A stretch of 31,409 nucleotides of DNA, taken from the IMG/VR virus record IMGVR_UViG_3300032246_000221, positions 1-31,409 of that record; one strand, written 5' to 3'. A model generated the notes under the pieces. The model was not told the origin of the DNA. It did not search any database and was given only the letters and a program-made list of their open reading frames with translations. Both the position numbers and the translations under genes were made by a program. Below are positions 1,381-24,780 of this stretch, piece by piece (within the stretch, counting starts at the first letter, position 1; each line of letters opens with the position of its first letter). Source of the stretch: a virus.

Positions 1381-1974
1381 ATGGAAACATCAATCGGAAA
1401 ACAAATAGCCGCCGCCTTTGTCAAAGCACAGAAGGCGTTTGGGCCAGCTTTAAAGACCTCTACAAACCCGCATTTTCGTAGCAAGTACGCTGACCTTTCC
1501 AACTGCATTGAGGCCGTCATTGGGGCTTTAAACGACAACGGCATAGGCTTGATCCAACGAACCTATGACTGTCCAACTGGCGTAATGGTTGAGACAATCT
1601 TTGTCCACGAATCTGGGGAAGTTATGGAATGCGGGTTGCTTCATGTACCAGCCGCCAAACAAGACCCCCAGGGCTATGGCAGTGCCTTGACCTACGCTCG
1701 GAGATACAGCCTTTTGGCAGCCACTGGCCTTGCCCCAGAAGATGATGACGGCAATGCTGGTTCACGCCGCACAGAAACGCCACAGATTAACGCTGGAATG
1801 ATGGCAGACCATATCGCGGCAATCGATGCCAGCGCCAATAAAGAGGAATTGCAAACCGCCTACAAAGCCGCCTACGATGCTTGCAAGGGCGACCAGACTT
1901 GGATTGCCAAGGTAATCAAAGCCAAAGCAGACCGCATTGCTAAAGCAAAAAAGGAGAAAGAAAATGGAAACTGA
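1381..1974 (+). CDS. erf: ERF-family single-strand annealing recombinase (197 aa)
   Basis: ERF-family proteins bind single-stranded DNA and anneal complementary strands; in P22, Erf circularises incoming DNA and aids recombination. The sequence shows the family signature: an N-terminal segment with KAFGPALKTSTNPHFRSKYA near residues 19-38, then DPQGYGSALTYARRYSLLAA and ATGLAPEDDDGNAG near residues 95-130. A charged helical C-terminal tail follows. The length is close to P22 Erf (about 204 aa). AAGGAAACATC precedes the ATG. The 3' end overlaps the nuclease gene by 11 bp, and an SSB-like protein follows, so these form a recombination module. Confidence 0.93.
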   Translation: METSIGKQIAAAFVKAQKAFGPALKTSTNPHFRSKYADLSNCIEAVIGALNDNGIGLIQRTYDCPTGVMVETIFVHESGEVMECGLLHVPAAKQDPQGYGSALTYARRYSLLAATGLAPEDDDGNAGSRRTETPQINAGMMADHIAAIDASANKEELQTAYKAAYDACKGDQTWIAKVIKAKADRIAKAKKEKENGN

Positions 1975-2593
1975 AATTATCCAAGGTTCAACCGAATGGT
2001 TTTACCAACGTCTGGGCAAAGTCACCGCCAGCAGAGTGGCAGACGTAATTGCTAAGACCAAGACAGGTTACAGCACCAGCCGTGATAACTACATGGCCCA
2101 GCTTGTGGTGGAACGCCTGACCTTTACCAAACAAGAGTCCTACACCAACGCCGCCATGCAGTGGGGCACAGACCAAGAACCATTTGCACGGGCGGCGTAT
2201 GAGGCCGCACAGGGCGTAATGGTGGAGGAGGTGGGGTTTGTGCGTCACCCATCAATTGAGTGGGCTGGTGCGTCCCCTGATGGGCTTGTGGGGAACGATG
2301 GATTGGTCGAAATCAAATGCCCAAATACGTCCACCATGATTGAAACGCTGCTATCGCAAAAAGTCCCTGGCAAATACTTTATCCAGATGCAATTTCAGCT
2401 TGCTTGCACAGGGCGCAAGTGGTGTGACTATGTGGCGTTTGACCCTCGAATGCCAGAAAAGGCGCAAATGTTTGTCAAACGGGTTGACCGTGATGACGCA
2501 TATATCGCAGAGATTGAAGCAGAGATTGTCAAATTTCTTGCTGAAGTCAAATCCCAAGTTCAACAACTCAACGCAATCATTGAAAGCAAATAA
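1964..2593 (+). CDS. YqaJ-type phage exonuclease (209 aa)
   Basis: This matches the YqaJ/lambda-exonuclease family, which digests one strand of duplex DNA ends to make the single strands used by annealing proteins. The N-terminus reads IIQGSTEWFYQRLGKVTAS, typical of the family. The PD-(D/E)XK core is visible as ASPDG (Asp106) and VEIKCP (Glu116, Lys118). The ATG at 1964 has AAGGAG eight bases upstream, so the longer frame from 1937 is not needed. It overlaps the erf gene by 11 bp and shares one base with the next gene. Pairing with ERF is like Red exo/beta in role, using different families. Confidence 0.92.
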   Translation: METEIIQGSTEWFYQRLGKVTASRVADVIAKTKTGYSTSRDNYMAQLVVERLTFTKQESYTNAAMQWGTDQEPFARAAYEAAQGVMVEEVGFVRHPSIEWAGASPDGLVGNDGLVEIKCPNTSTMIETLLSQKVPGKYFIQMQFQLACTGRKWCDYVAFDPRMPEKAQMFVKRVDRDDAYIAEIEAEIVKFLAEVKSQVQQLNAIIESK

Positions 2594-5319: not shown

Positions 5320-5545
5320 TTGATTTTCCTAACCAGTGGGACACATAACCCATTGCACTAGATATGGCAGAAACCAGCGCCATGCCAGCCCAGAACCCGC
5401 CTCGACCCTGATTAGCAAGGGCCACCAGTTGTTCTAGCTGACCTTCCATCTTGGTCATCTTCTTGTCCATGTCATCAAATCGGCGCTCGTAGTCCTCGAC
5501 CTTTTGCCAAAGAACGCCATATTTAACTAGGTCAATGTCAGACAT
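5315..5545 (-). CDS. XhlA/holin-like coiled-coil membrane protein (76 aa)
   Basis: The N-terminal part (SDIDLVKYGVLWQKVEDYER, then DDMDKKMTKMEGQLEQLVAL) is a coiled coil. It is followed by a membrane helix (GFWAGMALVSAISSAMGYVS) and the short tail HWLGKSN. This layout, one amphipathic helix then one span, is that of small XhlA-like lysis proteins. The ATG at 5545 overlaps the upstream stop as TGATG, so translation is coupled to the ejection-protein gene. It is the first gene of the lysis cassette. The role in lysis is inferred from layout and neighbours. Confidence 0.75.
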   Translation of the reverse strand: MSDIDLVKYGVLWQKVEDYERRFDDMDKKMTKMEGQLEQLVALANQGRGGFWAGMALVSAISSAMGYVSHWLGKSN

Positions 5546-8271
5546 CACTTGTTCAAATCTTCAAGTTTGTTTTTGCCTGTTTGTTTGCCAAGGGCAGATG
5601 CTTTTTCCATTTCTTTTTCCATCTTTTTTATGGCTTTAGCTTCTGCTCTTGCGCCTAATTTTTGTTCAATTTTTTTGCCTACTTCTCTACCAACAATTGT
5701 CCCTGCGGCTGCTGTGGTTGGATTCATATCACTGAGATATCCTGCAACTGTACCTCCCACAGTACCGCCTACGGCTTGTGCGCCTTTTTCAAGCAAACTT
5801 ATGCGTCTAGCTTGCTGTCCAGCGCCTTCATATTTCAGTCCTGGCGTAAATTGCCCAACCAAATTTAATTTGACATAGTTTTGCACTTCATTTGGTGGGA
5901 ATGTTTCTAAAATCTTTTCACCAACAGTTGAAGTCATCATGTTGTTTACAGAATTGGAATTCCATTCGCCAACTTTGCCAGCGCCAGCTTTGTAAACTTC
6001 ACGGGCTAATGCGCCATCCATTTCAGCTACGGCGGCAGCAGCAGCTTGACGCAACTCAGGTGGAACTGGGGGCAATCCTTCTGGCGCACCTCTTACCCGA
6101 CCATTTGCCAAATCATTAAAAGTATCACGAATGTGTCGCCATTCATCTTTTCGTAAATTGTTTAATGTTGACAGCATTTTTTCGGCTGGTATAGCCGCTT
6201 TAACTATGCCATTTTGATCTACTTCACCAAACAATCGTTTAAATCCATTCGATCCTAAAATGGTTTTTTCAACTTGATGCACTTTATCGCCTAGCTTATA
6301 AAGCGCTGGATCAGCGACCGCGGCAATGTCTTTATCAATAGCTTGATTAATTTTGCGAATTGTATTTGCCCTTTCTGGAGTCCATGTTCCAGGTGCATTA
6401 TTACTTTTGCGTACAGCATCGTATGCAGCTACAGAACCAGGCGGCGCTATTTTTCCGTCTGGAAGTTCAAATCCTACAGTTCTTGCTAATTCAAGTTCTT
6501 TTTTTGCCCCATTTAAAAAACTTAAAGTTCCTTCTTTTTCAGCTGTAGCTAATTGTTGGGCGTTATTAAAAAAGTTATCAGTATGTGAAGTGGCAATTTT
6601 GTTGTTACCCATTCTTTGGAAAGCTGAATCAAAAATTTGTTTTTTGGTTTGATTCAAATATCCAGTAAGGCTTGATGATGCCAAATCGTCCCTTGATGTT
6701 CCATGCGCCACATCATTGACGAAATTGCCACGTTGTTCATCATTTGTAAAAGAACGGCTTGCACCCGTAGCGTTTACACGTTCTTCAGCAAATTTAGAAA
6801 GACCCACTTGCTCATTGGCAATTTGTTCTTTTAACTTTAATCCCAGTGGAGAAGGTTCAGCCATGTTTGCCAAACCATGTTCATTGCGTAGTAGATTGTC
6901 GTTTCCTGTGACAACCCCAGGCCGTGGTTTAAGTCCAGGCAATACATCTTGAAAAAGTTGTGACCTCAATTGTTGTTCTGCAACAGGCACATCTTTGGGA
7001 ATTTTTGTAAGTTTAATTTGTGGAAAGGTTGCACCAACTCCAGCGCCACGGGCGGTTTCCTCGCCTGTAATTTTTCCCAAATATGGGTTGTTTTGTACAG
7101 CCGCAGCGCCAGCACTACCTATTGGGGCTTGCTTGGCTTCAAACTGGGCTTGCGCTTGTTCTTTAGTTAGCTGTCCAGGCTTGACAATTTCCAACTCGGC
7201 AGCGGCTTGGCGCAAAGGTTGTGTTACTTTGCCAACAATAGGCGCAACTTCTTTGATTGCTTGTGGCAATGCAAATGAAGCGGTGACCGCCATGTTTTTA
7301 ATGTCTTGCTCGGGAATGCCTGTTTTTTCAGAAATCTGTTTGGCAGTTAAACCCATTTCTTCTGCCAATTTTTTGACTTGCTCAACAACAGGCTCAGTAA
7401 TACCGCCTAATGGTTTCTGATATGTTTCTTTACCAGTAAGGCCAAAAAATTTGCCCAAAGGCTTGTCAATACTTGCGGCGGCGGCTTGGCCTGTTTGCTC
7501 TGCCCGTTCTGGGCTTTGTGCCGTTCTTGCCAATGCTTGAACTGCCGCGCCATACGTTGCTGGAACAACCCCGTAAAGGGTATCAATTGCGCCAGCCACA
7601 CGCTGGGGAATTTCTTGTTTAGTTTCTAACGCACCTTTTAAGAACTTGCCAACCAATTGGCGAACGCCCCCAGGCTCTTGCGCTTGGTCTATTGCTTGTC
7701 TAACAGCAAAACGTGCGCCACCAGGGGCATGGGGGTTAACGGCATCGTAATAACCTTCTTGCTGGGATACAGGGGCCGCTTGCGGGGCAACAGGGGCGGC
7801 TTTTGCTGCAACGGGTGTAGCAGTAGATTGTCCCAGTATCAAAGACCCTAAATCATCCTCTGGCGCTGCTTGCGGGGCTGCTTGTGAGGTAGGTTGCGTG
7901 GTTTTTGGCGCTGGGCCTTTTAAAACCTTGTTTACATATTCGGTGGGGTCTTTGGTAACAAATCCACCATACGCCGCCAATGCTTTTTCAATGCTACCTT
8001 TATCTTTTACCAATTGCTCAAGGTAAGTTTTTGCCGCTTGGCGTGATTCAGCTTCATTGAATGGATTAAATTCAATGCCTTTTTTGTGCATTGTTTGCAC
8101 TTGTTCTGGCATAAATTGATATGCCCCCATTGCCTTGCTTTCTTTGTTCAAAGCAAATCGATCACCACCGCTTTCAACTTGTCGCAAACGATTAAGCAAA
8201 TCATCAGTAACAATTGATGCGGATTTGGTTTCGGGCGCTTTGCCTAAAATGAGTGAACCAAGATCATCCAT
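5545..8271 (-). CDS. Large ejection protein with transglycosylase domain (908 aa)
   Basis: Residues about 24-105 form a lytic transglycosylase (SLT-type) domain, with catalytic Glu33 in RQVESGGD and the conserved AYQFMP at 50-55. P22 gp16 occupies this slot among the injected proteins; a wall-cutting domain would help DNA cross the cell wall. The rest is an Ala/Pro/Gln-rich linker (about 115-190) and a long, mostly helical body. Gly/Ala-rich hydrophobic patches occur near the end (GGTVGGTVAGYLSDMNPTTA). DDLGSLILG occurs twice, at residues 2-10 and 139-147, on each side of the enzyme domain. The gene overlaps the previous one as TAATG. Confidence 0.85.
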   Translation of the reverse strand: MDDLGSLILGKAPETKSASIVTDDLLNRLRQVESGGDRFALNKESKAMGAYQFMPEQVQTMHKKGIEFNPFNEAESRQAAKTYLEQLVKDKGSIEKALAAYGGFVTKDPTEYVNKVLKGPAPKTTQPTSQAAPQAAPEDDLGSLILGQSTATPVAAKAAPVAPQAAPVSQQEGYYDAVNPHAPGGARFAVRQAIDQAQEPGGVRQLVGKFLKGALETKQEIPQRVAGAIDTLYGVVPATYGAAVQALARTAQSPERAEQTGQAAAASIDKPLGKFFGLTGKETYQKPLGGITEPVVEQVKKLAEEMGLTAKQISEKTGIPEQDIKNMAVTASFALPQAIKEVAPIVGKVTQPLRQAAAELEIVKPGQLTKEQAQAQFEAKQAPIGSAGAAAVQNNPYLGKITGEETARGAGVGATFPQIKLTKIPKDVPVAEQQLRSQLFQDVLPGLKPRPGVVTGNDNLLRNEHGLANMAEPSPLGLKLKEQIANEQVGLSKFAEERVNATGASRSFTNDEQRGNFVNDVAHGTSRDDLASSSLTGYLNQTKKQIFDSAFQRMGNNKIATSHTDNFFNNAQQLATAEKEGTLSFLNGAKKELELARTVGFELPDGKIAPPGSVAAYDAVRKSNNAPGTWTPERANTIRKINQAIDKDIAAVADPALYKLGDKVHQVEKTILGSNGFKRLFGEVDQNGIVKAAIPAEKMLSTLNNLRKDEWRHIRDTFNDLANGRVRGAPEGLPPVPPELRQAAAAAVAEMDGALAREVYKAGAGKVGEWNSNSVNNMMTSTVGEKILETFPPNEVQNYVKLNLVGQFTPGLKYEGAGQQARRISLLEKGAQAVGGTVGGTVAGYLSDMNPTTAAAGTIVGREVGKKIEQKLGARAEAKAIKKMEKEMEKASALGKQTGKNKLEDLNK

Positions 8272-9788
8272 TACTTATCCTTTTTGACTTTGGTCAAACC
8301 CGTTTTGGACAAACTTAAAATGTTTTCATACATATCAAAAAACTCTTTGCGTTTTGCTGGGTCGTTGCCTAACAAAGCATCAATTTGATCTTTACGTTTT
8401 TGAGGGTCTGAAATGGCTTTGTAAATATTCATTGCTTCAAAAATTTTGGTGTCAGCATTAGCATTCCAGGCTTGTTGATAAGCCTTCATGTTGTTGTCAC
8501 CATGAGATTGAGCAAATATTTGTGCGCCTTTGGCTTGTAAATCCAAATTTGTTTGGTCAGCTTGAACCCTGCGAGCAATGCCCACTAATTTTTCTGGTGG
8601 CATTTTGATAGTGCCATTAGCCACTTGTGCCATATCCAAACCAGAAACTGTATTGCCAGCGCCACCCATAGCCGTAGCATTGGACAAAGCCATTCTTGCA
8701 AGGTCTTTAGCCAACATATCGTATTCGGCGCTGTTTACTGCCATGCGAATTTTTCTGCCAATTTGCCCAGCAAAACCACCACCTTTTTCAATGCTATACA
8801 AATCTTCATTCAAAAGATTTGCTTGCTTAATTACTTCCTCAACATTTCGTTTTCCTTGTGGCAATTCACCTTGTCCTGCAATTAAGCGGTCACGATATGT
8901 TTGCCCAGAAAGTTGATCTTTTGCCTCAGATGGTTCTGGCATATATGGCTGATCTGCCCTGCGTACTGGATAAGGCACACGCATACCTGGGGCAATTTCA
9001 GCGCCAGCACCAACTGGCCCACCAGTTGAAGGCACATTTGCTTGCAGACCGCCAGCCATGCCAATCGTTGCGGTGGGCGGCGTTATGCCAACTCCAGGCG
9101 TGGTTGTGACTGTCTTGCCTTCTGCCGTTGTCGCAATGGTTGGCGCAAGTGAGGTTTGTTGCTGCGTAGGTGACATGATGGCTTGGCTTGCCTTGATCAG
9201 TGCATCAGTAACTGCTGGGCCTTTTTGCATTTGAGAAAAAATAGGCACATAGGCTTTTTCAACCAAGTTTTTCATTTCTGGGTCGTTAGGATTTGTGGCA
9301 AGAAAATTTTGCAATTCTCTATTTACAACTGCGGGGTCATCTACACCAAAACGACCAGCCGCCCCTAAAAACGATGAAATCAACGCCTTTTTATCTTGAG
9401 TTAGATTCTGTTTGGCTTTTAAGCCCTCGGTCTGCGCCGTGCCCAAAGTTGTAAGTTTAGATGAAAATTCTGGAAATGTTTGTGGGAATAAATAGCTTGC
9501 TTCATTCAATTTAGGTATGCTGACATTCCCATTGTCATCTTGCCAATTTTTTGGGTCTTGCAAAAATTTCATTTGCAATAGTCGTTCTTTATTTGCTTGC
9601 TCTGTAACGCCTAATTGAATTTCGCCCGTGCGAGTGGCTTGCTGCTTGGCTTGCAATTCCAACGGGTTGATTTGCTGGGCTTGTTGATAGGCTTGCGCCC
9701 CTCTTGCAATATTTAACATATCGCCAAGGGAAGTTTGAGGCACAGGTTTGACCTCTGTGCCAAGCATGGGAACGGTAAAGTCTGCCAT
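8271..9788 (-). CDS. Ejection protein, gp20-like by position (505 aa)
   Basis: The protein begins MADFTVPMLGTEVKPVPQTS and has a Gln-rich helical first third (QAYQQAQQINPLELQAKQQA). A Thr/Pro/Gly-rich middle spans about residues 210-290, and a long helical end includes MANISNAT-like small-residue stretches. Such low-complexity, helix-forming proteins between gp7- and gp16-like genes correspond to P22 gp20, which is ejected with the DNA. It starts 2 bp after the gp7-like gene and overlaps the next by TAATG. Family assignment rests mainly on gene order. Confidence 0.7.
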   Translation of the reverse strand: MADFTVPMLGTEVKPVPQTSLGDMLNIARGAQAYQQAQQINPLELQAKQQATRTGEIQLGVTEQANKERLLQMKFLQDPKNWQDDNGNVSIPKLNEASYLFPQTFPEFSSKLTTLGTAQTEGLKAKQNLTQDKKALISSFLGAAGRFGVDDPAVVNRELQNFLATNPNDPEMKNLVEKAYVPIFSQMQKGPAVTDALIKASQAIMSPTQQQTSLAPTIATTAEGKTVTTTPGVGITPPTATIGMAGGLQANVPSTGGPVGAGAEIAPGMRVPYPVRRADQPYMPEPSEAKDQLSGQTYRDRLIAGQGELPQGKRNVEEVIKQANLLNEDLYSIEKGGGFAGQIGRKIRMAVNSAEYDMLAKDLARMALSNATAMGGAGNTVSGLDMAQVANGTIKMPPEKLVGIARRVQADQTNLDLQAKGAQIFAQSHGDNNMKAYQQAWNANADTKIFEAMNIYKAISDPQKRKDQIDALLGNDPAKRKEFFDMYENILSLSKTGLTKVKKDK

Positions 9789-9790
9789 GT

Positions 9791-10486
9791 TTATGCCGCC
9801 CCAATTGCGTTGTACTGGTTCATAAAGTTACTACCCGAAACATTAGAACCGCTTGGTCGAATCAAACCAGCCAAAGTTGCGGCGTTGCCAATACCTTGCA
9901 ATCCCCCTGCATAGGCATTTGCAGCCCCGATTTGACCAGCGCCAAGGGCAGATGCGCCCCCAATGCCCAGTTGTCCAATGTTAGCTGCGGTGCTTTGTCC
10001 AAGTGCATTGGTTTGTCCCTGTGCAGTTTGTCCAATTCCTGCCAAAGATGCCAAGCGGTTGTAAATGTTTGTTTGTTGCGTCATGTACTGAGGCAAGCCA
10101 ACATTAGTGGCGTAATCAATAGCAAATTTACGCCTTGCAAGATCAACGTTTGAACCGCCACCACCTACGTTCATGGTTTGCCCAGCAGCGCCCGTTCCTT
10201 GGTTTAAGCCAAACTCAAACCCTGGCATTGCCCGTAAATCTTCCGCTGTCGGCATCTTATTTAACTGCGGCAACATTGTGTTGATTTGAGACAATGCACC
10301 ATAACCAGCTTGGCGGTAAGGTTCTTGCTGGGCGTTCTGAATGTCAAACATTGCCCGTTGTTGAGCAGCAGCATCTTGTGTGGCTTGATATTGCTGATTT
10401 GCCGCTTGTGATGCCGCACTTGCTTGTTTGTTTGCGCCCAAATAACCTAATACGGCTGTCCCAGCCAGCGCCCATCCTAATGGCAT
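9791..10486 (-). CDS. gp7-like DNA ejection protein (231 aa)
   Basis: The sequence is Ala/Gln/Gly-rich. The N-terminus PLGWALAGTAVLGYLGANKQ is a hydrophobic, Gly-containing segment followed by an Ala/Gln helix (ASAASQAANQQYQATQDAAA). Later segments include MPGFEFGLNQGTGAAGQTMN and the Gly/Ala-rich run GASALGAGQIGAANAYAGGL. These features are typical of phage DNA-transfer proteins of the P22 gp7 type. The start follows AAAGGAAACATC and overlaps the cupin gene by 10 bp. It would be packaged in the virion and form part of the conduit across the envelope. Confidence 0.82.
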   Translation of the reverse strand: MPLGWALAGTAVLGYLGANKQASAASQAANQQYQATQDAAAQQRAMFDIQNAQQEPYRQAGYGALSQINTMLPQLNKMPTAEDLRAMPGFEFGLNQGTGAAGQTMNVGGGGSNVDLARRKFAIDYATNVGLPQYMTQQTNIYNRLASLAGIGQTAQGQTNALGQSTAANIGQLGIGGASALGAGQIGAANAYAGGLQGIGNAATLAGLIRPSGSNVSGSNFMNQYNAIGAA

Positions 10487-21305: not shown

Positions 21306-22211
21306 TCAGCGGATTCGCCCTGCCATTCGTGCGGCTTTGTAGGCTTGATATGTACCTTCAAATTTACCATCGCTGGTAAGGGGTACATCTCTGCCGTTTG
21401 CCGCCGATCTGATTGGGTTAATCGGCGCTGGCGCTTTACTTTTCCCAACAACAGTCTTAGATGTTGGCTCAGTTTTTTCATACTGGGCCTCTAGCTTTCC
21501 AATGCTTCTTAAAGCCGATGCCACGGTCATGCCTGAGAGTTTCTCTGCAAACTCGGGATTCTCGGCAAGGTGATACAGAATTCGTGGGCCTACATCTGAT
21601 TCAAAGATTGCGTCCCGCACTTCGTTGCTCACAACAACGTCAGCAGAACCAACCATATCGTCAAAATCAGGCATCTCAGACTTGGCAGCTTTAACCCGAT
21701 CAGTCCAGGCACTAATGACCTTTTCCCGTTCGGCTTGCTGTTTCGCCTGTGCGTCCTTCTGCTTTTCCTCGCCTAACCTTTGTTCAACCCGATAGTCTGT
21801 CAACGCCTTGGCGTATTCATACATATCGGAGAAATTCTCTGGCTTGGGTTCACCAGTTGGTTGGGTTTCTGCTTGCGGCTTTGCCCGACCTTCCAATTCC
21901 TTAACTTTGGCCTCTAAAGATTCCCGCGCGTCCCGTTCCCGCTTGGCTTCTTGCCTTGCTTCTTCGCGTTGCTTGGTTATCTTTTCAAACCTCAATTCCA
22001 ACTTTGGATTGCGTTTTCTTTCCTCTGTCGCTGTCGCTTCATCTTCCCCAAGCGGCTCACTCTGGCTTTGCGTTTCTGTCGGCTCTGTGGGAGTTTTCTC
22101 GACCACAGCCTCAACAGGCGCTTTGTCAGCTAAACCCATCCTCTTGGAGTTGAACTCAGCTAAATTTTCACTTGTCACCACACTAGAGGCAACTTTCACT
22201 TCTTCAGACAT
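21306..22211 (-). CDS. Scaffolding protein (301 aa)
   Basis: The protein is highly charged and helical, with long Glu/Lys/Arg/Ala coiled-coil stretches (EKITKQREEARQEAKRERDA, then RESLEAKVKELEGRAKPQAE). It ends in a basic segment (YKAARMAGRIR). Its length matches P22 gp8 (303 aa), and it sits between portal and coat as in P22. The C-terminal basic helix of P22 scaffold binds coat. The N-terminus carries VVTSENLAEFNSKRMG, whose VTSENxxEFN core is repeated in the neighbouring 117-aa gene. GAGG lies upstream of the ATG. Confidence 0.88.
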   Translation of the reverse strand: MSEEVKVASSVVTSENLAEFNSKRMGLADKAPVEAVVEKTPTEPTETQSQSEPLGEDEATATEERKRNPKLELRFEKITKQREEARQEAKRERDARESLEAKVKELEGRAKPQAETQPTGEPKPENFSDMYEYAKALTDYRVEQRLGEEKQKDAQAKQQAEREKVISAWTDRVKAAKSEMPDFDDMVGSADVVVSNEVRDAIFESDVGPRILYHLAENPEFAEKLSGMTVASALRSIGKLEAQYEKTEPTSKTVVGKSKAPAPINPIRSAANGRDVPLTSDGKFEGTYQAYKAARMAGRIR

Positions 22212-22233
22212 TGAGTTTCCTCAAAGAATTTAC

Positions 22234-22250
22234 CCAGTTGACCCAACTGG
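22234..22250. other. Inverted repeat in the scaffold leader
   Basis: CCAGTT (22234-22239) and AACTGG (22245-22250) pair perfectly around GACCC, about 23 bp upstream of the scaffold start codon. There is no T-run, so it is unlikely to be a terminator. P22 scaffold controls its own synthesis after transcription, so a leader hairpin is a reasonable regulatory candidate; this is inference. Confidence 0.4.
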
Positions 22251-22293
22251 TAAGGTTTGGGGCGATATTACCCGAAATCATTGCTTTGTCAAA

Positions 22294-22647
22294 TTAATCG
22301 TGAAAATTTGGATGTTTTGACATTGGGTGATTTTCTGAAATCATTTGTTCACGAATTTTTTTTGCCGTTTCGTCACTAAAACCACCTAAAGAATGTTCAG
22401 GATGTTTTTTATTTAAACCATATGCCACAATATGTGCATGATGTTCTTTTTTTAATCTTGCATAATGGCCTTCTTTATGATGTTCAACATCATAAAAATC
22501 TTGAGTTGGTCTATTTTTTTGGCCAATTAAACCTTTTTTTATTGATGTTTTTTTTACATAATAGGGTTGATTTTCATTACCTATTTGTTTTTTAGATAAT
22601 TCATTTCGATTAAATTCTTCTCTATTTTCACTAGTTACTGTTGGCAT
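22294..22647 (-). CDS. AT-rich His-rich protein sharing a scaffold N-terminal motif (117 aa)
   Basis: The protein begins MPTVTSENREEFNRNELSKK; its VTSENxxEFN core matches the N-terminus of the adjacent scaffold. The rest is unrelated: basic, then a His-rich region (EHHKEGHYARLKKEHHAHIV, later NKKHPEHSLGG) and an end with HPMSKHPNFHD. The His pattern suggests metal binding. The gene is far more AT-rich than its neighbours, roughly 30 percent G+C by eye, with A/T-ending codons. It starts behind AAGGA at the portal stop. The unit looks like a later insertion between portal and scaffold. Possible roles are procapsid cargo or nuclease, both inferred. Confidence 0.75.
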   Translation of the reverse strand: MPTVTSENREEFNRNELSKKQIGNENQPYYVKKTSIKKGLIGQKNRPTQDFYDVEHHKEGHYARLKKEHHAHIVAYGLNKKHPEHSLGGFSDETAKKIREQMISENHPMSKHPNFHD

Positions 22648-22656
22648 TTCAATTCC

Positions 22657-24780
22657 TTATTGCAGTGGTTGAATGAATGGGCTTGCACCCTGGCTAATAT
22701 CCTGGGCGGCAAACTGGGCATATTGGGCTTGTTCGGCATTCAATCGCTCAATCTCGCCCATCAATTGGTTAGGTGACATTCTTGCCAACAGGATTTTGAC
22801 CAGGGCATCAATTTCGGTCTTATTCTGGCTGGTGATGCTGCGGGTATTCTGGTCATTAACCCGAACCTCTGCCATTGTTTCGGTATTATGCGCCTTGGCG
22901 GTCACTTCCATCAGCTTGCGCTTGGTTGCGCCTTCCTCTTTAATCTGGGCCACTTGCGCCCTGTTATTGATCTCAAGGCCAGCAGCTTGCAATTGCTGTT
23001 GCAGTTGCTGAATCATTTGCTCAGACTGCGCCAAACGCATCTGGGCTTCGGGCGGTATATCGGATTTTTCATCAATATTTGCCATCGGGTTCATGGCGGC
23101 AAGGCGGTCAGCGATTACATCTGCGCCTGGGAAGTCCATGTTTCTGAATACCAAATCCCCTGCGATATTGAACAATTCAGCGTTGCCTGTGAGCAATGGC
23201 ATCATGGATTCAACCGCTTGCTGGCGCTTAGTCTGGAATCCTGGCCCTGTGTCCATTACCACATCATATTCACCCACGGTCACATCGTTCAAAACCTCGC
23301 CAATCTCGTTGGCCTCGTTGATCGTGGTCATGTCGGGTTGACCATCCGACCCAATAATCCGCATCACCCGCTGGGTATCGTAAATCTTGGGTATCAAGTC
23401 AAGAATGATGCGCCCAGTTTGAGCAATGGAACGGGTCATATTGTCGTAAAAGTGGAAGTTAGACAGATCAACTTGATTCTGTTGCCCCGCCAATGCTTTA
23501 CCTGAGATATTCCCGCTTGGCAATTGGTTGGGGTCAAGAACGCCTAGCACCATCTGCAAATCGGCAGAAATAGCCCCCGCAGCTTCCATAATCCCTGATG
23601 GTGGCGGCTCGGGTTGCAGTCGCTGGGGCGCTGGCGCTGGTACGCCTTCAATGTCTTTTTGCTTGTATCGCAGCACAGGCATTGACTTGATGTTAGCCAT
23701 TGCCCATTCGTTTTCATGGCCCTCGTCTTGGCCTTCTGCCATCACCCATTTGGCTTTAGGTGCAAGGGCAATGCTCTCGGTCATGCTGGTGCGCCAGAAG
23801 TTATACATCCGCTGGGGGTCTTTGGCAAACCGCACCAGACCGTATTTCTTGCGCTTGTCATCCACAATGACTTGCGCCCCATAGCAAGGCACAACGGGGA
23901 TATATTTACCCGCCCAGGTCTTTTCCTCAAGCACTTCCAATGCGGTCATCTTGGCCCATTTAACGGCCTTGCGGAAGGATTCGCGCTCGTCAACCACAGT
24001 CAACCCTGCGGCCTCAACTCGAGCAAAGAATCCAGCGCTGTCCCCAAATGAAGAAGTGCCATCACTCAGCAAATACAGCTTGGCCCTTTCGCGCTCAATC
24101 CAAAAATACTCAGCAATCCGAATATCCTCTTTGGTCACCCAGGCGGCAGTGTCATCGCCTGTGCTGCGTTGCTGAAAGTTAGCGCCATCATCAGCACCTG
24201 GGTACATTTCCCGAAATATCTTTTTGTCCAAGACGGTGGTGATCAAACAACGCTCGGCATCCGAACCATCTGGCCTGATGCTGTTAGGGTCAAAATAAAC
24301 AGTAAAAGGGTTGTCAATCGCATCAATGTAGATTTCTTGATCAAAAGAATCTTCCCTTACATATTTGTAATTTATGCGCCAGTAGCCCCAGCCCATTCTG
24401 ACGGCGTAGTCAAAGGCGGTGTCATAGGCGGTGTCGGCGCTCGAGTTAACCTCAATATGACGGGTGATGCCCTCAATAACCTGGGCAATTTTGTAATCGG
24501 CAAGGTTATTGACGGGGTGAACCTTGATGCGTGGGCGCTGCTGGCGCTGCTGGTTGGTCACCTGTCGGATGTACGCATCAATCTTATTGATTGTCAGACA
24601 AGGGCGGCTTTCCAAATTGCGCGAGTTTTGAATCTCAACGGGCCATTGGTCACCAGCGGCAAACTTAATGTCGTTTAGCGCCTCGGCCCTGTTTGTGGAG
24701 TCCGAATCATTGACCAAGCGCCAGAACTTAATCGCCTCTGAAATCTTGTCTTTTGCGTTGTCTTCGTCTTGGTATGCCAT
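22657..24780 (-). CDS. Portal protein, P22 type (707 aa)
   Basis: The N-terminal region (AIKFWRLVNDSDSTNRAEAL, then NDIKFAAGDQWP) and the following RPCLTINKIDAYIRQVTNQQ match P22-like portals, with QRPRIKVHPV shortly after. The length is near P22 gp1 (725 aa). A Gln-rich helical C-terminal region (EQMIQQLQQQLQAAGLEINN) and a Gln/Ala tail correspond to the barrel that extends into the head. Twelve copies form the DNA channel at one capsid vertex. AAAGGGG precedes the ATG, and it follows the large terminase after 18 bp. Confidence 0.92.
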   Translation of the reverse strand: MAYQDEDNAKDKISEAIKFWRLVNDSDSTNRAEALNDIKFAAGDQWPVEIQNSRNLESRPCLTINKIDAYIRQVTNQQRQQRPRIKVHPVNNLADYKIAQVIEGITRHIEVNSSADTAYDTAFDYAVRMGWGYWRINYKYVREDSFDQEIYIDAIDNPFTVYFDPNSIRPDGSDAERCLITTVLDKKIFREMYPGADDGANFQQRSTGDDTAAWVTKEDIRIAEYFWIERERAKLYLLSDGTSSFGDSAGFFARVEAAGLTVVDERESFRKAVKWAKMTALEVLEEKTWAGKYIPVVPCYGAQVIVDDKRKKYGLVRFAKDPQRMYNFWRTSMTESIALAPKAKWVMAEGQDEGHENEWAMANIKSMPVLRYKQKDIEGVPAPAPQRLQPEPPPSGIMEAAGAISADLQMVLGVLDPNQLPSGNISGKALAGQQNQVDLSNFHFYDNMTRSIAQTGRIILDLIPKIYDTQRVMRIIGSDGQPDMTTINEANEIGEVLNDVTVGEYDVVMDTGPGFQTKRQQAVESMMPLLTGNAELFNIAGDLVFRNMDFPGADVIADRLAAMNPMANIDEKSDIPPEAQMRLAQSEQMIQQLQQQLQAAGLEINNRAQVAQIKEEGATKRKLMEVTAKAHNTETMAEVRVNDQNTRSITSQNKTEIDALVKILLARMSPNQLMGEIERLNAEQAQYAQFAAQDISQGASPFIQPLQ

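Follow-up and report, generated by a model that had tools for sequence, protein, structure and literature searches.

The locus analysed here raises the question of why a small gene of foreign appearance, lying between the portal and scaffold genes of a virus, should encode a protein that begins like the scaffold next to it. The window, i.e. the whole stretch of DNA that was analysed (31,409 nucleotides), is a 31.4-kb IMG/VR virus contig that carries on its minus strand terminase, portal, the tagged gene, scaffold and coat. The scaffold of the window begins MSEEVKVASSVVTSENLAEFNSKRMGLAD and the small protein begins MPTVTSENREEFNRNELSKK, the part common to both being VTSENxxEFN. The features needed for the argument are the following:

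22657..24780, minus strand: P22-like portal protein (PF16510, E 4.4e-176)
22653..22658, minus strand: AAGGAA Shine-Dalgarno-like sequence of the putative cargo gene, which overlaps the stop codon of the portal gene (read from sequence)
22294..22647, minus strand: tagged putative cargo gene, 117 aa, coordinates including the stop codon
22588..22647, minus strand: N-terminal tag MPTVTSENREEFNRNELSKK, residues 1-20, conserved over about 16 unrelated bodies
22297..22587, minus strand: variable body, Lys/His-rich, GC 0.29, of no recognised family
22265..22292, minus strand: sigma-70-like promoter TTGACA-16-TAATAT between the cargo and scaffold genes, also found in relatives with an empty site
22206..22257, minus strand: structured leader of the scaffold mRNA, a covarying hairpin and then a second one with the ribosome-binding site; no Rfam match
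21306..22211, minus strand: scaffolding protein, 301 aa, P22 gp8 homologue (phrog_8865, E 4.5e-45)
22125..22181, minus strand: the motif as it occurs in the scaffold, VVTSENLAEFNSKRMGLAD, at residues 11-29, corresponding in position to the P22 N-loop
20027..21274, minus strand: P22-like coat protein (PF11651, E 1.4e-33)
9791..10486, minus strand: DNA-ejection protein (phrog_598, E 6e-18), candidate partner of the N-loop motif

The composition of the gene is as the sequence-only reading had described it: its GC content is 0.282, compared with about 0.50 in portal and scaffold, and histidine accounts for 11 of the 117 residues (9.4%). The metal-dependent nuclease activity that had been proposed for the protein found no support, as the body of the window has no match in Pfam, PHROGs, NCBIfam or PADLOC and its single-sequence AlphaFold model has a low-confidence fold (pLDDT 51). 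A tblastn search of phages gave no match to this body, and a search of IMG/VR gave no untagged relative. A likeness of the C-terminus to NUMOD3 was confirmed by no library scanned.

The tag is about 20 residues long, with a helix predicted at residues 6-17 in a low-confidence model, and its core, V-T-S-x-N-x-x-E-F-x-x-x-x-M/L, probably forms a capped amphipathic helix. Searching with the window protein, we found three contigs in which the first ~19 residues are alike and the bodies mostly different, at the same site. The degenerate pattern MPTVTSENxxEF, which fixes residues 1-8 and 11-12, was present in 38 IMG/VR contigs, and wherever the flanks are present the tagged ORF lies directly between portal and scaffold (38/38 matches). 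The looser pattern MxxVTSENxxEF added 10 matches: one is a scaffold, five are unrelated chance matches with VTTEN, and four are further tagged genes, which occupy the slot or directly follow a portal. Apart from the 5 VTTEN matches, M..VTSEN..EF was thus confined to 43 IMG/VR contigs (42 cargo genes and 1 scaffold). All finds together amount to 71 loci, mostly metagenomic fragments with related and non-independent sequences, and to 47 distinct tagged proteins (that of the window and 46 others at the same site); the variants VTSKN, VTSAN, VTSQN and VTSDN also occur. A tblastn search with the tag peptide gave no match in the named-phage collection, the tag pattern was absent from a genome collection of 84,980 bacterial and archaeal species, and six-frame scans of six full contigs and of the window gave no ORF with the VTSEN motif besides scaffold and cargo.

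The frequency of the tag can be estimated free of selection for the tag only from HMM tests, described below, and from a survey of loci that were gathered by scaffold similarity, independently of the tag. This survey comprised 168 distinct portal-scaffold junctions, of which 27 are occupied, and 26 of these 27 occupants begin with the tag M(P/A)(T/L)VTSxNxxEF, 12 slot occupants having been recognised as tagged by eye, as VTS(K/A/Q)N or VTSKT variants. Whether the motif is random in close relatives had been put forward as a refuting check on the original idea; the check did not refute it, and the tag recurs at the same slot. Since the other 141 slots are empty, including that of L005, a relative with a 99%-identical portal, the tagged gene is dispensable for assembly in general. 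In L005 the scaffold promoter follows just after the portal gene; the tagged gene has been inserted behind the stop codon of the portal and ahead of the promoter of the scaffold. Its ATG often overlaps the portal stop (TAATG/TGATG), and the slot usually consists of one ORF with no adjacent immunity gene. The phages that possess the slot are a group of freshwater bacterial viruses, and their probable hosts are Burkholderiales-like bacteria of fresh water, since Paraburkholderia/Burkholderia genomes contain relatives of the portal.

Three other junctions should be mentioned. The sole untagged occupant (L046:4629-4889) encodes a hydrophobic protein of 86 aa, which contains the motif HEMKHWEQY and has no Pfam match. 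At L110:8804-9056 an apparent extra small ORF lies between a 396-aa GP88-like cargo and the scaffold, and this slot may hold two genes. In a distant P22-like phage (MW202573.1, L126:4169-4666) the portal and scaffold genes are separated by an unrelated untagged gene of 165 aa, and the scaffold of this phage is also without the motif.

On the scaffold side of the slot, the scaffold gene has its own promoter just 3' of the cargo position (window 22265-22292), and the leader that follows was found as a single copy upstream of the scaffold in 6/6 full relatives searched. In its first hairpin 91% of cells are paired, with a covariation score of 0.60 against 0.18 after shuffling; the second is short, carries the ribosome-binding site beside the AUG and has a mean stem of 3.7, compared with at most 2.8 in shuffles. 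An Rfam scan of the leader gave no match. The leader may control scaffold translation.

What follows the tag is highly diverse. After removal of the first 22 residues, clustering gave about 16 unrelated body families (16-17, since the grouping of L147 with L096 and L174 is possibly spurious). Body identity between families is 0.25, the same as in a shuffled control (0.25), while tag identity is 0.59 over 16 residues. The whole tagged proteins measure 66-396 aa and have a single domain where one is recognised; the bodies are mildly basic, with a mean GC of 0.34 compared with 0.46 in the flanks, and their GC is below that of the portal side in 44/44 cases. A GNAT acetyltransferase (PF13508, above cutoff) was recognised in L195 and GP88 (PF17338, E 5.5e-23) in L110, and three bodies (L121, L274 and L303) resemble ADP-ribosyltransferases (ART-like) by weak matches only (PF18760, E 0.002; PF01885, E 0.006). 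One family, other than that of the window, gave an AlphaFold model (7 sequences) with pLDDT 78, which without the tag (residues 23-150) matches Osa (4ovb), a ParB/Srx fold, with Z 12.5 and 2.6 A over 123 residues, the next unrelated entry having Z 5.5; this match rests on VIA-align, a Foldseek superposition with an rmsd of 13 A having been set aside. An untagged relative of the Osa-like body is contained in a 538-aa head-cluster protein of Nodularia phages (gp023 of phage 2AV2, L294:7248-8861), whose gene adjoins a KTSC-domain gene and precedes a prohead protease.

The family 0 bodies (YKEKLNPHKDYF) had no match in named phages, and PHROG and Pfam scans of the bodies returned no internal-protein family. 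A homing endonuclease insert was also considered and rejected, as no HNH, GIY-YIG or LAGLIDADG match was found in any scanned body.

Pairs of loci indicate how the slot is filled. In L115 and L104 the tagged gene is 96% identical, against 60% for portal and 72% for scaffold, and the identity breaks at the ATG and at the stop codon; in L098 and L099 it is 99% identical against 80/71 for the flanks, and in L089 and L257 98% against 75%. Judging from these comparisons, whole tagged ORFs move between divergent phages. An exchange of the body alone behind a resident tag was rejected, since in the clearest pair, L115/L104, tag and body moved jointly, and whole-ORF transfer was therefore taken as the rule; a few pairs do have tags more divergent than their bodies (L089/L257, p=0.006). 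Genes for an Erf-like annealing protein and a RecE-like exonuclease also lie in the window (1381-2593, plus strand), and this recombination module could plausibly help cassette exchange.

Across families the tag has a pS of 0.70. With synonymous sites near saturation and V, T, S and N fixed, selection acts on the peptide itself. The bodies are under purifying selection within families (pN/pS 0.15-0.49).

The scaffolds give the tag a possible meaning. V(V/L/I)TSENxx(E/D)F(N/Y/H)xx(K/R)(L/M)GLA is near-invariant at the scaffold N-terminus and is followed by a variable acidic stretch. TSEN was found in 120/121 distinct scaffolds (119 counted by script, plus VVTSENLAEW of L195 by eye), a figure that leans towards the motif because some of the scaffold search patterns cover it; the scaffold of L121, outside that survey, has ITADN. 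A more distant scaffold (L298:5206-5655) starts with MVTVTSENLQEF and has the motif at a cargo-like distance from its start, Paraburkholderia/Burkholderia loci have a distant scaffold version with VVTSENLMQ, and a MAG has VLTNENMPEF; in the farthest P22-like scaffolds examined the VTSEN motif is absent.

An HMM of the scaffold N-terminus, run on the 2,524 ORFs of 7 near-complete genomes, retrieved the scaffolds and then the cargo genes (E 3e-4 to 0.34), the next ORF having E 5; reciprocally, on the same 7 genomes and 2,524 ORFs, an HMM of the tag retrieved the cargo genes and then the scaffolds, ahead of any other ORF. The 16-column profiles of scaffold and tag overlap by 6.9, whereas the highest value reached when columns were shuffled 20,000 times is 5.3. 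Outside the core the two motifs differ, the scaffold having G-L-A after position 14 and the cargo K-K, and so they may not bind identically; the E at position 4 of the cargo motif may also be K, A, Q or D.

The neighbouring scaffold gene sits between a P22-like portal and a P22-like coat, and its family profile matches P22 gp8 (9kyw_A) with E 7.7e-7 over gp8 residues 58-271. As the alignment starts at gp8 residue 58, the motif falls within the segment that corresponds to the P22 N-loop (residues 1-57). This loop is unresolved in the procapsid structure and has been implicated in the incorporation of the ejection protein gp16 and in scaffold release (PMC12005531).

Tag, slot, body diversity, cassette transfer, selection on the peptide, similarity to the scaffold motif and homology to gp8 with its N-loop position are all read from the sequences themselves. 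The explanation that we favour, and consider reasonably probable, is that the slot holds an interchangeable cargo cassette with a loading tag that mimics the scaffold, and that its product would be packaged and delivered to the next host. The cargo would be made late in infection from the portal/scaffold operon. Its first ~20 residues would copy a conserved part of the scaffold N-terminal loop and would dock on a partner inside the prohead that normally binds this loop, most likely the ejection-protein/scaffold core, with the ejection proteins as first candidate, namely that of 9791-10486 and two further candidates close by, at 8271-9788 and 5545-8271. The docked cargo would then be built into the procapsid, stay when the scaffold leaves and pass with the DNA into the next host, and its variable body would there act on host targets or defences.

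The suggestion of an assembly or prohead-loading signal carried by a new cargo is thus the one favoured by the comparative data, with one tag, about 16 unrelated bodies, one slot and a tag shared with the scaffold N-loop, while packaging itself is what we infer from them, together with binding to a prohead partner, retention, injection and action on the host. Delivery has support by analogy, since GNAT, ParB/Srx and (weakly) ART-like bodies belong to types that occur in injected proteins; ART, GNAT and ParB-like domains have been described as packaged in virions and injected, or predicted to be so (PMC5512222). Against loading stand the one untagged occupant and the fact that most bodies, including that of the window, have no recognised family. 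The known coat-binding hook of the P22 scaffold is C-terminal, which makes the partner of the N-loop only a candidate, and the implication of the N-loop in scaffold exit would oppose cargo retention. A more general statement, to which we lean with less assurance, is that P22-type phages have a natural cargo-loading code, in which an N-terminal peptide mimicking the scaffold could make any protein a procapsid passenger, and that the slot would be a hotspot of exchangeable effectors destined for injection, the code being independent of the systems of T4 and P1 and involving no proteolytic processing.

The same implication of the P22 N-loop in scaffold release (PMC12005531) also allows an assembly-control element, in which a small protein would compete for the N-loop partner and modulate the release of the scaffold, the assembly of the head or phages that co-infect the cell, the body being secondary. 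The position of the gene between portal and scaffold, with a start that often overlaps the portal stop, agrees with this. However, about 16 unrelated bodies under purifying selection, some of them with enzyme folds, are unexpected if only the tag mattered, and the gene is absent from most relatives; we regard assembly control as unlikely, although it deserves to be kept in mind.

We give equally little credence to a moron-like accessory hotspot, whose proteins would act unpackaged in the infected cell and whose N-terminus would serve expression only, through initiation, coupling to the portal or stability. AT-rich inserts are typical of morons, and the frequent TAATG/TGATG overlap would suit such coupling, but it is the amino acids that are conserved and not the nucleotides, conserved positions lie as far in as F9 and M/L14 of the motif, past the first codons, and the tag matches the scaffold motif though the scaffold start, leader and upstream residues differ.

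The motif might also be a site at which a protease or host factor recognises scaffold and cargo and removes both, akin to the processing site that the sequence-only reading had offered as its other option; an N-terminal motif common to two proteins of the prohead region would be compatible with this. We consider it very improbable, since no prohead protease was found among the head-cluster proteins scanned and a P22-type scaffold leaves the head uncleaved, with no proteolysis (PMC9962691). That the likeness arose by chance, or by a recent duplication of part of the scaffold gene, is hardly credible: only about 9/16 positions are common, but the motif recurs with many bodies and scaffolds in 43 contigs, the reciprocal HMMs are specific, the profile overlap exceeds that of shuffles, 26/27 occupants are tagged in a tag-independent survey, and the two copies of the window have different codons at most of the ten motif positions, several of them differing only synonymously.

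We therefore return to the interchangeable loaded cargo and compare it with known systems. The sequence-only reading knew of no described system of this kind. This holds for a scaffold-like tag in P22-type phages, as neither tag nor slot was found described in the open-access papers searched, and it does not hold for the principle, since both the internal proteins of T4 and DarB of P1 are targeted to the capsid by a sequence at their N-terminus. In P1 DarB about 30 N-terminal residues (the first 30) are enough to bring a reporter into the capsid (PMC9024508); however, DarB is one large cargo for which no set of interchangeable bodies has been described, and P1 has no separate scaffold protein. 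With P22 the common ground is the scaffold, which is here a gp8 homologue with the motif in the equivalent segment, while VTSEN is absent from the far P22-like scaffolds examined and no tagged cargo has been described for P22. In the loading of P22 VLPs a foreign protein is likewise carried into the particle by part of the scaffold protein, but this system is engineered and relies on the C-terminal coat-binding part, not on an N-terminal motif (PMC9962691).

Polyvalent proteins also carry ART, GNAT and ParB-like domains and are predicted to be packaged and injected (PMC5512222), but they are large and multidomain, whereas here single small bodies follow a 20-residue tag. With polymorphic toxins the tagged proteins have in common a constant N-terminal trafficking part and a variable C-terminal part, without the adjacent immunity gene.

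If the favoured reading is correct, MPTVTSENxxEF beside a P22-like scaffold gives a sequence handle by which phage proteins that are probably injected, most of them without a known family, can be sought in environmental data, and the binding target of the P22-type scaffold N-loop becomes directly testable. The N-terminal tag of roughly 20 residues is also a candidate for loading proteins into P22-like particles. The comparison further points to separate origins of capsid-targeting leaders in several types of phage, in this case by copying the scaffold.

The closest parallel is found in T4, where Ip1-3 have only the N-terminal leader in common, which directs packaging, and inhibit different GmrSD enzymes (PMC12373910). 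Ip1-3 and Alt, the internal proteins with the capsid-targeting sequence (CTS), are unrelated small proteins of a hypervariable, dispensable locus whose versions differ among related phages (PMC12373910, PMC3012670), and the proteins described here are likewise non-homologous and have only a conserved N-terminal leader in common. The differences from T4 are a P22-type head, the lack of a prohead protease among the head-cluster proteins scanned, a tag that resembles the N-terminal motif of the phage's own scaffold and a single slot beside the scaffold gene. From this comparison, the best reading is that the tagged cargo set would work like the CTS/internal-protein system of T4, from which it is set apart by head type, by tag and by the lack of a protease among the head-cluster proteins scanned.
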